64,000 bases of DNA from Buttiauxella agrestis (GTDB taxonomy: Bacteria; Pseudomonadota; Gammaproteobacteria; Enterobacterales; Enterobacteriaceae), in NCBI RefSeq assembly GCF_900446255.1, contig NZ_UIGI01000001.1, positions 3,002,763-3,066,762 of the forward strand, read 5' to 3'. Positions 45,090-48,928 of this stretch are shown one piece after another. Every line of letters begins with the position of its first letter. Position 1 is the stretch's first letter. The notes beneath the pieces were generated by a model that saw nothing but the letters and a program-made list of their open reading frames with translations, had not been told where the DNA came from and ran no database searches. Position numbers and translations under genes: made by a program.

Positions 45090-46532
45090 ATGGCCCGTTT
45101 GTTGTTGGTACTTCTCTTGATGTCTACGTTTTTGCCGATGACGCATGCAGCCACCGACGAACAGCCGTTGAAATTCGATACCCAGGTTAACACCGTCCTG
45201 GGTGATTATGATGTGATGAAAGAGCGGCGCGTGATACGCGTTTTAATCCCTTACAGCAAAACTTTCTACTTTATTGACAACCGGGGTACGCAGCGCGGCA
45301 TCATGGTTGAGTTGATGCAACAGTTTGACAAACAAATCAATAAAGGCCTTAAACCCTCAAAAAAAACACATCTCCTTTTTATTCCAACCGCACGTGATCA
45401 GCTCATCCCACAGCTAATTGCTGGCCGTGGCGATGTCATTGCTGCCAATTTAACGATGACTCCAGAACGTGAAAAGTTAGTCGATTTCAGCGATCCCTTA
45501 GCTAAAAATGTCCGTGAAGTAGTGATTGCCAGCGGCAAGGCTCCCGAACTCACAACCGCAGAATCTCTGTCGGGTAAATCTCTGTTTGTTAACCCTTCTA
45601 CCAGCTACATTTCGAGTATTGATACACTTAATAAAAGCCTGACCGAGAAACAACTTCCACCCGCGATAGTGATCAAAGCCCCCGGCAATTTTGAACCCGA
45701 AGATATTCTGGAAATGGTCAATGCGAACCTCGCCGACTACACCGTGGTGGACAGATATCTGGCAATCTTGTGGAAACAGATTTACCCCAACATTGTGGTT
45801 TACGAAAATATTACGCTGCGGGATGACGGTTCTATCGCCCTTGCTATGCGCAAAAACTCCCCTTTGCTTAAGGCCCAGCTCGATAAATTCACGGCTAGCC
45901 ACAAAATCGGCACTTCATTCGGGAATCAACAGGTTTATAAATATTTGCGCAATACGAAGTGGGTAAAAGATGCGCGTTCGGAAGATGAGATAAATAAATT
46001 TAATCAGGTCACTGAAATATTTCGCAAATATGGTGCGCAATATAATGTCGACTGGCTACTAATGGCGGCTCAAGGCTACCAGGAGTCACGTCTCGATCAG
46101 TCTGTGCGAAGCAAAAGCGGTGCAATTGGCGTGATGCAGGTTCTCCCGACCACCGGTAAAGAGTTAAAGGTAGGCGATATCAGTTTAATCGACCCGAACA
46201 TTAATGCAGGAGTGAAATACATCCGCTTCATGCGCGACCGTTATTTTGCGGATGAACCCATGAGTGACATGAACAAAATGCTATTCACTTTCGCGTCTTA
46301 TAATGCAGGACCGGCTAAAATTTCCCGATTACGTAAAGAAGCAGCCAAAAGTGGCCTTGACCCTAATATCTGGTTTAACAATGTTGAAAGAATTGCGCAG
46401 CTGCGTATAGGTAATGAAACGGTGCAATACGTGAGCAACATCTTTAAGTATTACGTTGCTTATCAGCTCATCATGGAACAAATAAAAGCGCGGAAAGCAG
46501 AGTTGCCTGTTGCCGCCAGTACCGCAGAATAG
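45090..46532 (+). CDS. MltF-like membrane-bound lytic transglycosylase
   Basis: This 480-residue protein has the architecture of MltF: a periplasmic solute-binding-type domain (residues about 45-290) followed by a lytic transglycosylase SLT domain. The catalytic glutamate is Glu332 in AAQGYQESRLDQ, followed by GAIGVMQVLPTT and TFASYNAGPAKISRLR. The precursor has a signal peptide (ARLLLVLLLMSTFLPMTHA) but no lipobox, whereas the E. coli enzyme is found at the outer membrane. It is probably a paralogue, since the true mltF lies beside purL in E. coli. The ATG at 45090 has a weak ribosome site. Confidence 0.85.
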   Translation: MARLLLVLLLMSTFLPMTHAATDEQPLKFDTQVNTVLGDYDVMKERRVIRVLIPYSKTFYFIDNRGTQRGIMVELMQQFDKQINKGLKPSKKTHLLFIPTARDQLIPQLIAGRGDVIAANLTMTPEREKLVDFSDPLAKNVREVVIASGKAPELTTAESLSGKSLFVNPSTSYISSIDTLNKSLTEKQLPPAIVIKAPGNFEPEDILEMVNANLADYTVVDRYLAILWKQIYPNIVVYENITLRDDGSIALAMRKNSPLLKAQLDKFTASHKIGTSFGNQQVYKYLRNTKWVKDARSEDEINKFNQVTEIFRKYGAQYNVDWLLMAAQGYQESRLDQSVRSKSGAIGVMQVLPTTGKELKVGDISLIDPNINAGVKYIRFMRDRYFADEPMSDMNKMLFTFASYNAGPAKISRLRKEAAKSGLDPNIWFNNVERIAQLRIGNETVQYVSNIFKYYVAYQLIMEQIKARKAELPVAASTAE

Positions 46533-46598
46533 CTCTGCCTGTGATAGCTTCAGCATTCTTTTTCAATAACATCACTTGCCTTGAATGTCGAGATTTAT

Positions 46599-46618
46599 TA
46601 CTGTATATAAACACAGCC
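46599..46618. promoter_or_regulatory. LexA (SOS) box before the msgA/dinI-like gene
   Basis: TACTGTATATAAACACAGCC matches the LexA consensus TACTGTATATATATACAGTA at 16 of 20 positions, including both CTG and CAG ends. It stands 17 bp before the ATG at 46636. DinI in E. coli is an SOS gene, so damage-inducible control of this homologue is expected. Confidence 0.85.
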
Positions 46619-46635
46619 TTAAAAGAGACGTATCA

Positions 46636-46878
46636 ATGTTCGTGGAACTGGTTTACGACAAACGAAATGTAGCGGGTCTTCCCGGTGCAAATGAAAAAAT
46701 CCTTGCCGAGCTTACCCGAAGAGTTCAGACCATTTTTCCAGATGCTGACGTCAGAGTGAAACCCATGCAGATGAATGCGGTTCACAGTGATTGCACGAAA
46801 AATGAGAAAGAGAAAATCAACCGCCTGGTTGAAGAGATGTTTGATGAAGCGGATTTCTGGCTGGTTTGCGAAGACTAA
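46636..46878 (+). CDS. DinI/MsgA-family protein, SOS-regulated
   Basis: This 80-residue protein belongs to the DinI family and most resembles Salmonella MsgA, a macrophage-survival gene in the same icd-linked position. DinI binds RecA filaments and modulates SOS and UmuD cleavage. Family features are MFVELVYDKR at the start, ELTRRVQTIFPDADVRVKPM in the middle, and the acidic C-terminal helix EEMFDEADFWLVCED. The ATG at 46636 is the first one after the LexA box; an upstream start at 46585 would include the box in coding sequence. The YoaJ-like peptide follows after 17 bp. Confidence 0.88.
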   Translation: MFVELVYDKRNVAGLPGANEKILAELTRRVQTIFPDADVRVKPMQMNAVHSDCTKNEKEKINRLVEEMFDEADFWLVCED

Positions 46879-46895
46879 CAACAGGTCGCACAACA

Positions 46896-46970
46896 ATGAG
46901 AAAAACAACCGTAGTTTTAATTGTCGTCGCCATACTGGTCTGGCTTGCGAGCCAGCAGGGTTGGATTTAA
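46896..46970 (+). CDS. YoaJ-like 24-residue membrane peptide
   Basis: A 24-codon frame starts at 46896 with MRKTTVVLIVVAILV and ends WLASQQGWI. It matches the E. coli membrane miniprotein YoaJ in length, the (M)(K/R)KTT start, the hydrophobic core and the GW-type end. A single membrane helix of about 16 residues is expected. An ACAGG sequence lies about 10 bases upstream. It begins 17 bp after the SOS-controlled dinI/msgA-like gene, so co-transcription and DNA-damage induction are plausible. Its function is unknown; a TisB-like toxin role is only a comparison. Confidence 0.75.
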   Translation: MRKTTVVLIVVAILVWLASQQGWI

Positions 46971-47037
46971 CACACGACTGAGGAAGTGCTACCGAAAGCT
47001 AGCCTTCCTTAAATTTGATTTCATACAGACGAAAAAA

Positions 47038-47058
47038 AAACCACCTGAAAGGTGGTTT
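47038..47058 (-). terminator. Terminator of the tRNA-Thr gene
   Basis: AAACCACCT and AGGTGGTTT form a perfect 9-bp stem with a 3-base loop. The run of A on the plus strand at 47032-47040 gives a long T-tract on the minus strand, just beyond the tRNA 3' end. In the plus direction it could also end the msgA-like/YoaJ-like transcript. Confidence 0.88.
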
Positions 47059-47067
47059 TCTTCAATA

Positions 47068-47143
<76 letters not shown>

Positions 47144-47677: not shown

Positions 47678-48928
47678 TTACATATGTTCGATCATTGCGT
47701 CGCCAAACTCTGAACATTTCAGCAACTTAGCGCCTTCCATCAGGCGTTCGAAATCGTAAGTTACGGTTTTCGCGTTAATCGCGCCTTCCATACCTTTAAC
47801 AATTAAGTCAGCCGCTTCGAACCATTCCATATGACGCAACATCATTTCAGCAGACAGAATAATAGAACCTGGGTTCACTTTATCCTGGCCTGCATATTTT
47901 GGTGCGGTGCCGTGGGTGGCTTCGAACAGTGCACATTCGTCACCGATGTTAGCGCCTGGTGCGATACCGATACCGCCAACCTGAGCTGCCAGCGCGTCGG
48001 AGATGTAGTCACCGTTCAGGTTCATACAAGCAATAACATCGTATTCAGCAGGACGCAGCAGGATCTGTTGCAGGAATGCATCAGCAATCACGTCTTTAAC
48101 GATAATCTCTTTGCCGGTGTTAGGGTTCTTCAGTTTCACCCATGGGCCGCCATCGATCAGCTCGCCGCCGAACTCTTCACGCGCTAATTGATAGCCCCAG
48201 TCTTTGAAAGCACCTTCGGTGAATTTCATGATGTTGCCTTTGTGTACCAGGGTCACGGAATCACGGTCGTTAGTGATTGCGTATTCGATGGCTGCACGAA
48301 CCAGGCGTTTGGTGCCTTCTTCAGAGCACGGCTTGATGCCGATACCGCAATGTTCAGGGAAGCGAATTTTCGTCACGCCCATTTCATCACGCAGGAATTT
48401 GATGACTTTTTCAGCTTCAGCGCTGTCAGCCTTCCACTCGATGCCCGCATAAATATCTTCTGAGTTTTCACGGAAGATAACCATGTTGGTCAGTTCTGGG
48501 TGTTTAACCGGGCTTGGCGTGCCCTGGTAGTAACGCACCGGACGCAGGCACACGTACAGGTCAAGCTGCTGACGCAGCGCAACGTTCAGGGAACGAATAC
48601 CGCCGCCAACTGGAGTGGTCAGTGGGCCTTTAATTGCCACGCGGTAATCACGAATCAGGTCCAGAGTTTCTTCTGGCAGCCAGACATCCTGGCCATAAAG
48701 TTGGGTAGATTTTTCGCCGGTATAGATTTCCATCCAGGAAATTTTCCGCTCGCCTTTGTAGGCCTTCTGCACGGCGGCATCAACCACTTTGATCATAGCT
48801 GGCGTCACGTCCACACCGATACCATCACCTTCAATGAAAGGAATGATTGGGTTGTGAGGAACATTCAGTTTGCCATCTTGCAGGGTGATCTTTTTACCTT
48901 CCGCCGGAACAACTACTTTGCTTTCCAT
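47678..48928 (-). CDS. icd: NADP-dependent isocitrate dehydrogenase
   Basis: Icd oxidatively decarboxylates isocitrate to 2-oxoglutarate in the TCA cycle. The 416-residue protein has the E. coli length. The [13 protein letters not shown] segment contains the substrate-binding serine that AceK phosphorylates to divert flux to the glyoxylate shunt. [15 protein letters not shown] and [20 protein letters not shown] complete the metal and cofactor sites. The 3' end of icd is a prophage integration target in E. coli, but it is intact here with a normal terminator and no adjacent integrase. It diverges from rluE. Confidence 0.98.

Follow-up and report, generated by a model that had tools for sequence, protein, structure and literature searches.

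A YoaJ-like membrane peptide gene follows a LexA-boxed msgA gene in Buttiauxella and some related Enterobacteriaceae

Results

Organization of the msgA-yoaJ locus

The window analysed here is a stretch of 64,000 nucleotides from Buttiauxella agrestis, in which a LexA (SOS) box, an msgA-type gene and a yoaJ-like frame stand in close succession on the forward strand. The box (TACTGTATATAAACACAGCC, 46599-46618, + strand) lies 17 nt upstream of the ATG (46636) of a gene encoding an 80-residue MsgA-type protein of the DinI family (46636-46878, + strand), and a frame for a 24-residue, YoaJ-like single-span membrane peptide (MRKTTVVLIVVAILVWLASQQGWI, 46896-46970, + strand) begins 17 nt past the end of that gene. 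A sequence-only reading of this DNA had seen a near-consensus LexA box 17 bp before a DinI/MsgA-family gene and a 24-codon YoaJ-like frame 17 bp after it, and each of these elements was borne out by the matrix and profile comparisons given below.

The pair is flanked on one side by a cspA-like gene and a lytic-transglycosylase-like gene (45090-46532) and on the other by a tRNA-Thr (TGT) gene (47068-47143, - strand), the usual downstream neighbour, and by icd, which we take to be the frame at 47678-48928. The product of 45090-46532 is an MltF-like protein with solute-binding and SLT domains that scores below the NCBIfam MltF cut-off; this gene stands between the cspA-like gene and msgA in nine of the 11 named Buttiauxella loci (all except L031 and L035), and different genes take its place upstream of msgA in relatives. 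In L035, from an uncultured Buttiauxella, an impB/mucB-type polymerase gene (umuC-like; L035:4059-5770), with a small gene upstream of it, stands past the tRNA-Thr adjoining the msgA-yoaJ pair.

The LexA box and its probable promoter

Scored with a LexA matrix built from 11 E. coli boxes, the box reached 24.3 bits and was the top site in the 64-kb window, the runner-up scoring 13.1 bits. It departs from the ideal palindrome at four of 20 positions, and a search of the window for that palindrome with up to three mismatches allowed gave no match. The core CTGT-N8-ACAG occurs three times in the window against 0.57 expected, making the core motif by itself weak evidence; the claim of LexA control is carried by the full box and its conservation. 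A box is found at the equivalent place in all 12 Buttiauxella loci (L001-L012), and every one of the 17 genomes with the msgA-yoaJ pair carries one upstream of msgA, with scores of 21.5-28.8 bits.

Inspection by eye points to a probable sigma-70 promoter at 46581-46609 (+ strand), composed of TTGAAT (46581-46586), a 17-nt spacer and TATATA (46604-46609), with the putative -10 element falling within the LexA box. This promoter was not listed by the promoter scan because it has only eight of 12 consensus matches, below the scan threshold. The locus thus has the strong box in promoter position that is characteristic of the LexA regulon. In S. Typhimurium, LexA boxes are reported 14 bp ahead of msgA and 19 bp ahead of dinI, and both genes are reported to respond to nalidixic acid, msgA with a 3.44-fold rise (PMC8072944).

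The msgA-type gene

Comparison with Pfam DinI (PF06183) places the window protein in this family, with an E-value of 7.9e-19 and 68.2 bits against a gathering score of 24.2, and its match in the PDB is DinI (1ghh, 1.1e-06). As a member of the DinI family it resembles Salmonella MsgA and E. coli DinI. The model for DinI proper (NF007893) gives 36.5 bits, short of its cut-off of 111, and a separate DinI above that cut-off is encoded in all 12 Buttiauxella genomes. The window protein shares 72% identity with a relative from Salmonella enterica subsp. diarizonae and 36% with E. coli DinI; the nearest named record among the best 80 of 133 hits, from Buttiauxella agrestis ATCC 33320 (L026), is identical to it. 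The Salmonella copies are probably msgA, judging from their likeness and a nearby cspH-like gene, and two of them (L055 and L066), unlike the window gene, have no YoaJ frame behind them.

Homology and selection of the yoaJ frame

The window peptide matched the NCBIfam YoaJ model NF011343 with an E-value of 2.8e-06 at 27.1 bits, under the curated cut-off of 54. With an independent profile made from 32 YoaJ peptides at non-msgA loci, the frame scored 31.0 bits (2.2e-8), compared with 11.3 bits for the next frame of the window and 10.2 for the best of 20 shuffled windows. The frame has the significant match, the length and the start that mark the wider YoaJ family, and on these profile scores the peptide is a homologue of YoaJ, not an equivalog under NF011343. 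It shares with E. coli YoaJ (b4675) a length of 24 residues, a like start (MKKTT/MRKTT), A12 and a small-xxx-G-W end, at 46% identity overall; it differs in having W16, in its ASQQGWI terminus and in its score under the NCBIfam cut-off. In E. coli, yoaJ stands behind dgcP-yoaK with no LexA box in its vicinity, in contrast to the window locus. E. coli YoaJ has been described as a membrane protein of N-in/C-out topology (PMC4597795); it was found to co-precipitate with RseP, which cleaved it in two out of four assays (PMC4597795, PMC10470546), and it is listed among the E. coli small membrane proteins of unknown function (PMC9769844). Phage and plasmid collections searched with the 24-residue peptide gave no match, which for so short a query is mild evidence against an origin of this kind.

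The pattern of substitution in yoaJ is that of a coding sequence. Among 46 msgA-linked copies (21 distinct) pN/pS is 0.17; the 13 distinct copies from Buttiauxella, that of the window among them, give 0.10 at a pS of 0.53. Third codon positions of the Buttiauxella frames vary at 19 of 23 codons and second positions at one of 23. Of 100 differences from the consensus, 76 leave the amino acid unchanged, where the null gives a mean of 28% and at most 44%, these counts being per sequence and not per event. The copies used were partly chosen by their first-codon pattern, which missed L035 and counted the identical L108. The low pN/pS and the synonymous excess point to protein-level selection on the YoaJ frame, which is indirect evidence that it is translated.

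The msgA-yoaJ junction and the 3' flank

The 17-nt gap between the genes (CAACAGGTCGCACAACA, 46879-46895, + strand) holds a weak Shine-Dalgarno sequence, AGG at 46883-46885, 10 nt before the yoaJ ATG, and no terminator was found in it on the + strand of the window. Behind yoaJ, sequence and fold reveal a hairpin (AGGAAGTGCTA...TAGCCTTCCT, 46980-47010, + strand), the like of whose arms can be seen by eye in other Buttiauxella loci, and then a terminator-like hairpin (AAAAACCACCTGAAAGGTGGTTTTC, 47036-47060, -12.2 kcal/mol), which is assigned to neither strand and could also serve the opposite-strand tRNA gene; both are absent from the list of the terminator scan. The LexA box and the lack of a detected terminator between the genes of the window support the earlier suggestion that box, msgA and yoaJ make up one unit.

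This picture extends to most of the 20 distinct loci compared: 17 have no terminator-like hairpin between msgA and yoaJ, the other three (L006, L050 and L051) have a weak one, and 13 have such a hairpin behind yoaJ. The gap shrinks to only 2 nt in five loci (L010, L035, L037, L038 and L039), all of which are among the seven with no terminator detected behind yoaJ. Within the Buttiauxella/Cedecea/Dryocola clade gap lengths fall at 2, 17, 53-62, 74 or 98-106 nt, some of these values including the stop codon and any unaligned msgA end. Nine of the 12 Buttiauxella genomes have gaps of 74-106 nt, several of the longer ones with an extended -10-like TGnTATnAT visible by eye. Gaps of this length could hold a yoaJ promoter, so the tight operon is not universal and yoaJ could have a private promoter in some species. 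The window gap ends in the same bases as the longer gap and by eye resembles a shortened version of it. The Franconibacter gap measures 215-239 nt and contains a weak terminator-like hairpin.

We also considered an RNA switch acting by occlusion or coupling, given that the fold of 46606-47066 (z -3.33) joins the msgA tail and the yoaJ tail in a long hairpin. This candidate was rejected: the fold lacks conservation across the 20 distinct loci, where 9 to 98 out of every 100 synonymous recodings, depending on the locus, fold equally well, and the strong fold over the junction is accounted for by codon content.

Distribution and history of the pair

All 12 Buttiauxella genomes have yoaJ behind msgA, and each has this one strong yoaJ match, further matches being weak and inside longer frames. 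Among the 80 named loci, which are the best 80 of 133 hits, 17 have a YoaJ frame behind the msgA-like gene, namely 11 from Buttiauxella, two from Franconibacter, and one each from Cedecea colo, Enterobacter sp. R1(2018), Dryocola boscaweniae and Cedecea sulfonylureivorans. It is absent behind the other 63 of these best 80, and msgA-like paralogues without yoaJ occur in genera that have the pair or are close to those that do (L023-L025, L041-L043 and L062), including Buttiauxella L062 and the uncultured Cedecea L043. The sequence-only reading had proposed a check for YoaJ-like frames behind msgA/dinI-like genes elsewhere; the arrangement is confirmed as real, and it is conserved well beyond the strain. 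A hydrophobic small frame is not general behind msgA-like genes, as one occurs, at the threshold used, in only four of the 63 loci lacking YoaJ. The 3' flank of msgA-like genes nevertheless seems often to carry lineage-specific cargo. A different conserved small frame (LSLPEY..GKAIM-like) stands behind msgA-like genes in L041, L042, L043, L048, L064 and perhaps L045.

A tree of 80 msgA genes (240 columns, after removal of one row of 81 for its truncated frame) calls for two separate origins of the pair, in a 16-row clade (SH-aLRT 97) and in the two Franconibacter rows. Because the tree is that of a single gene, with 240 columns, the second origin could instead reflect transfer of msgA, and the long gap makes Franconibacter the weaker of the two cases.

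A YoaJ match was present at E 0.05 in 76 of 295 genomes of the family, and at E 0.001 in eight of 295 genomes drawn from the order, all eight from the same family. We examined 70 of the 81 family matches, leaving out seven weak ones in frames of at least 351 residues and four borderline ones (G303, G075, G185 and G266); L221 and L222, from the order survey, do not enter the locus counts. The 79 yoaJ loci, one from E. coli K-12 and 78 others, comprise 42 with dgcP or yoaK no more than 260 nt upstream, 17 with msgA and 20 with other neighbours, among them SRAP (yedK-like), aminotransferase and lipid A acyltransferase genes. At the 62 loci other than those with msgA, no LexA box was found between 1500 bases upstream and 300 downstream, the best site scoring 14.0 bits. 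In one genus (L130, L158 and probably L161) yoaJ follows a SRAP (yedK-like) gene, confirmed with PF02586 in L158, and has no LexA box; SRAP is another yoaJ neighbour that is named for DNA damage.

The E. coli-like partners of yoaJ persist in Buttiauxella. The dgcP gene is found in 10 of 12 genomes, with no yoaJ behind it in the four loci read, and yoaK in 11 of 12, apart from yoaJ. A long gene lies directly upstream of yoaK in six of the seven Buttiauxella loci read (L213-L218 among them); in L213, the only copy tested, this is a MASE5-GGDEF gene. No LexA box was found at yoaK in the seven of 11 loci that were read, the best site there scoring 9.5 bits. The E. coli-like order, being the commonest, is presumably the older; if so, yoaJ parted from yoaK and came to stand with msgA. 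The single strong yoaJ and the lack of a separating terminator make it probable that a LexA operon of one lineage took yoaJ in, and the locus is best described as a case in which one group of Enterobacteriaceae has placed a known small membrane protein in a unit headed by a LexA box.

Helix properties of YoaJ and SOS toxins

Like the SOS type I toxins TisB and DinQ, the window YoaJ is short, has one span and is linked to a LexA box. It differs from them in its uncharged, non-amphipathic helix, in being the second gene of its unit and in having no antitoxin RNA that we could see: no antisense-RNA promoter-like site was listed over yoaJ, in a scan that is insensitive and also missed the probable LexA promoter. 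The hydrophobic moment of the window helix is 0.02, with no charged residue past position 3, compared with 0.18-0.24 and charges at K12, E22 and K26 in two Buttiauxella TisB peptides. In TisB, four charged residues (D5/K12/D22/K26) are described as forming a strip on the polar face, with a possible passage for protons (PMC8309996). The amphipathic helix and charged strip of a TisB-like toxin are thus lacking in the window YoaJ. Of the 12 Buttiauxella genomes, 11 encode TisB itself, in every case behind a LexA box some 200-225 nt away, so that the job of TisB is already taken. The idea that YoaJ substitutes for a missing TisB or DinI was rejected, since these are present in 11 and 12 of the 12 Buttiauxella genomes, respectively.

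The peptide family as a whole is less uniform. For E. coli YoaJ the moment is 0.14, close to the 0.18 of one TisB, with one glutamate, at position 20, and 13 of 44 non-msgA YoaJ peptides have an acidic residue near the end; the case against a pore therefore rests mainly on the msgA-linked type. T5 and A12 are invariant among the 54 distinct 24-residue YoaJ peptides, and 52 of these have A or G at position 18 together with G at position 22. The conserved (A/G)xxxG motif tips the balance towards binding of a partner in the membrane but, small-xxx-small motifs being common in membrane helices, is no proof of it. Taken together, the uncharged, non-amphipathic helix and the presence of TisB make a pore unlikely and a partner-binding role more likely.

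Discussion

Our analysis favours, as slightly more likely than not, an explanation in which msgA and yoaJ are the two genes of a LexA operon whose SOS-made YoaJ binds a partner membrane protein and forms no pore. DNA damage would lead to cleavage of LexA and to transcription from the promoter at about 46581-46609, and one transcript would run through msgA and yoaJ to the terminator region behind yoaJ. MsgA would act in the cytoplasm as a RecA modulator of the DinI type. YoaJ, translated from the msgA message, would insert into the inner membrane as one helix with its N-terminus inside; its (A/G)18-xxx-G22 face may then bind a helix of the partner protein, the activity of which would be altered while the SOS response is on.

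The strongest competitor holds that yoaJ is a passenger, placed behind msgA by chance and keeping an older housekeeping job, as beside dgcP/yoaK in E. coli, with SOS read-through being incidental. That yoaJ wanders among neighbours, that the 62 non-msgA loci are free of LexA boxes and that the longer gaps of many Buttiauxella could carry a separate promoter all agree with this; against it, the pair has stayed together in every one of the 16 rows that make up the Buttiauxella/Cedecea/Dryocola clade despite repeated change in gap length, and the msgA gene tree needs a second origin in Franconibacter. We consider this account a real contender, if on the unlikely side.

A specific form of the partner-binding explanation would make YoaJ an SOS-induced inhibitor of the divisome (FtsW/I/N). 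Its model is SidA of Caulobacter, a 29-residue, SOS-induced inner-membrane protein that is reported to inhibit division through FtsW (PMC4211646) and thus acts on a membrane partner, as we propose for YoaJ. Caulobacter is a distant bacterium, and the two peptides are alike in size and LexA control; by analogy, SidA is the nearest working model for YoaJ. The dinI message of Klebsiella is also described as carrying a division inhibitor, the sRNA DinR (PMC10907235). Set against this, E. coli yoaJ has no LexA box nearby and the portions of the YoaJ literature consulted make no mention of filamentation, and a divisome target for YoaJ seems to us unlikely.

The sequence-only reading had pointed to depolarisation of the membrane, in the manner of TisB, and this part of it found no support. 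A short hydrophobic peptide behind a LexA box does invite the comparison, DinQ, a one-span SOS peptide, is reported to depolarise on over-expression (PMC3567139), and several E. coli type I toxins are reported to influence depolarisation (PMC11997105). The same source reports that TisB alone controls the proton part of depolarisation in E. coli (PMC11997105), and the window peptide, unlike TisB, has neither charged strip nor amphipathicity; with TisB encoded in nearly all Buttiauxella genomes and no antisense promoter listed by the insensitive scan, depolarisation by YoaJ is disfavoured and we judge it quite improbable. Weakest of all is the notion that the message carries a DinR-like sRNA in its 3' UTR, which has its precedent in Klebsiella dinI (PMC10907235) and could draw on the hairpins behind yoaJ, but is very improbable given that changes in yoaJ are mostly synonymous, that 155 of 500 shuffles pair as well as window 46879-47066 does with the ftsZ start of G001, the nearest genome available for comparison (one target region), and that the long-range fold lacks conservation and at none of 20 loci clearly exceeds synonymous recodings in strength.

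The two-gene LexA operon with a partner-binding YoaJ would have its closest parallels among known SOS outputs. SOS-induced small membrane proteins are already known as a kind, of which msgA-yoaJ would be a variant. DinR likewise is an extra SOS output in the 3' part of a dinI-family message; it is an RNA, while YoaJ is a peptide, and no comparable ftsZ pairing exists in the window. The msgA-yoaJ pair would thus add a peptide example to the pattern set by DinR, in which a dinI-family message carries an extra, lineage-specific SOS output. We found no report of the msgA-yoaJ pairing in the open-access literature, which excludes most subscription journals.

More speculatively, YoaJ may be a membrane arm of the SOS response that was drawn twice, in Buttiauxella/Cedecea/Dryocola and in Franconibacter, to a LexA-controlled msgA, so that a single message would couple a RecA modulator with a target in the inner membrane, and the job of YoaJ in E. 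coli may bear on surviving DNA damage; we offer this wider proposal tentatively and think it rather doubtful. For a peptide of this family, a place as the last gene of a LexA-box unit points to DNA damage as the condition and to msgA as the partner gene, and lends itself to a simple test. Since yoaJ lies behind a DNA-damage-controlled gene, Buttiauxella and some of its relatives probably make a membrane peptide during the SOS response.
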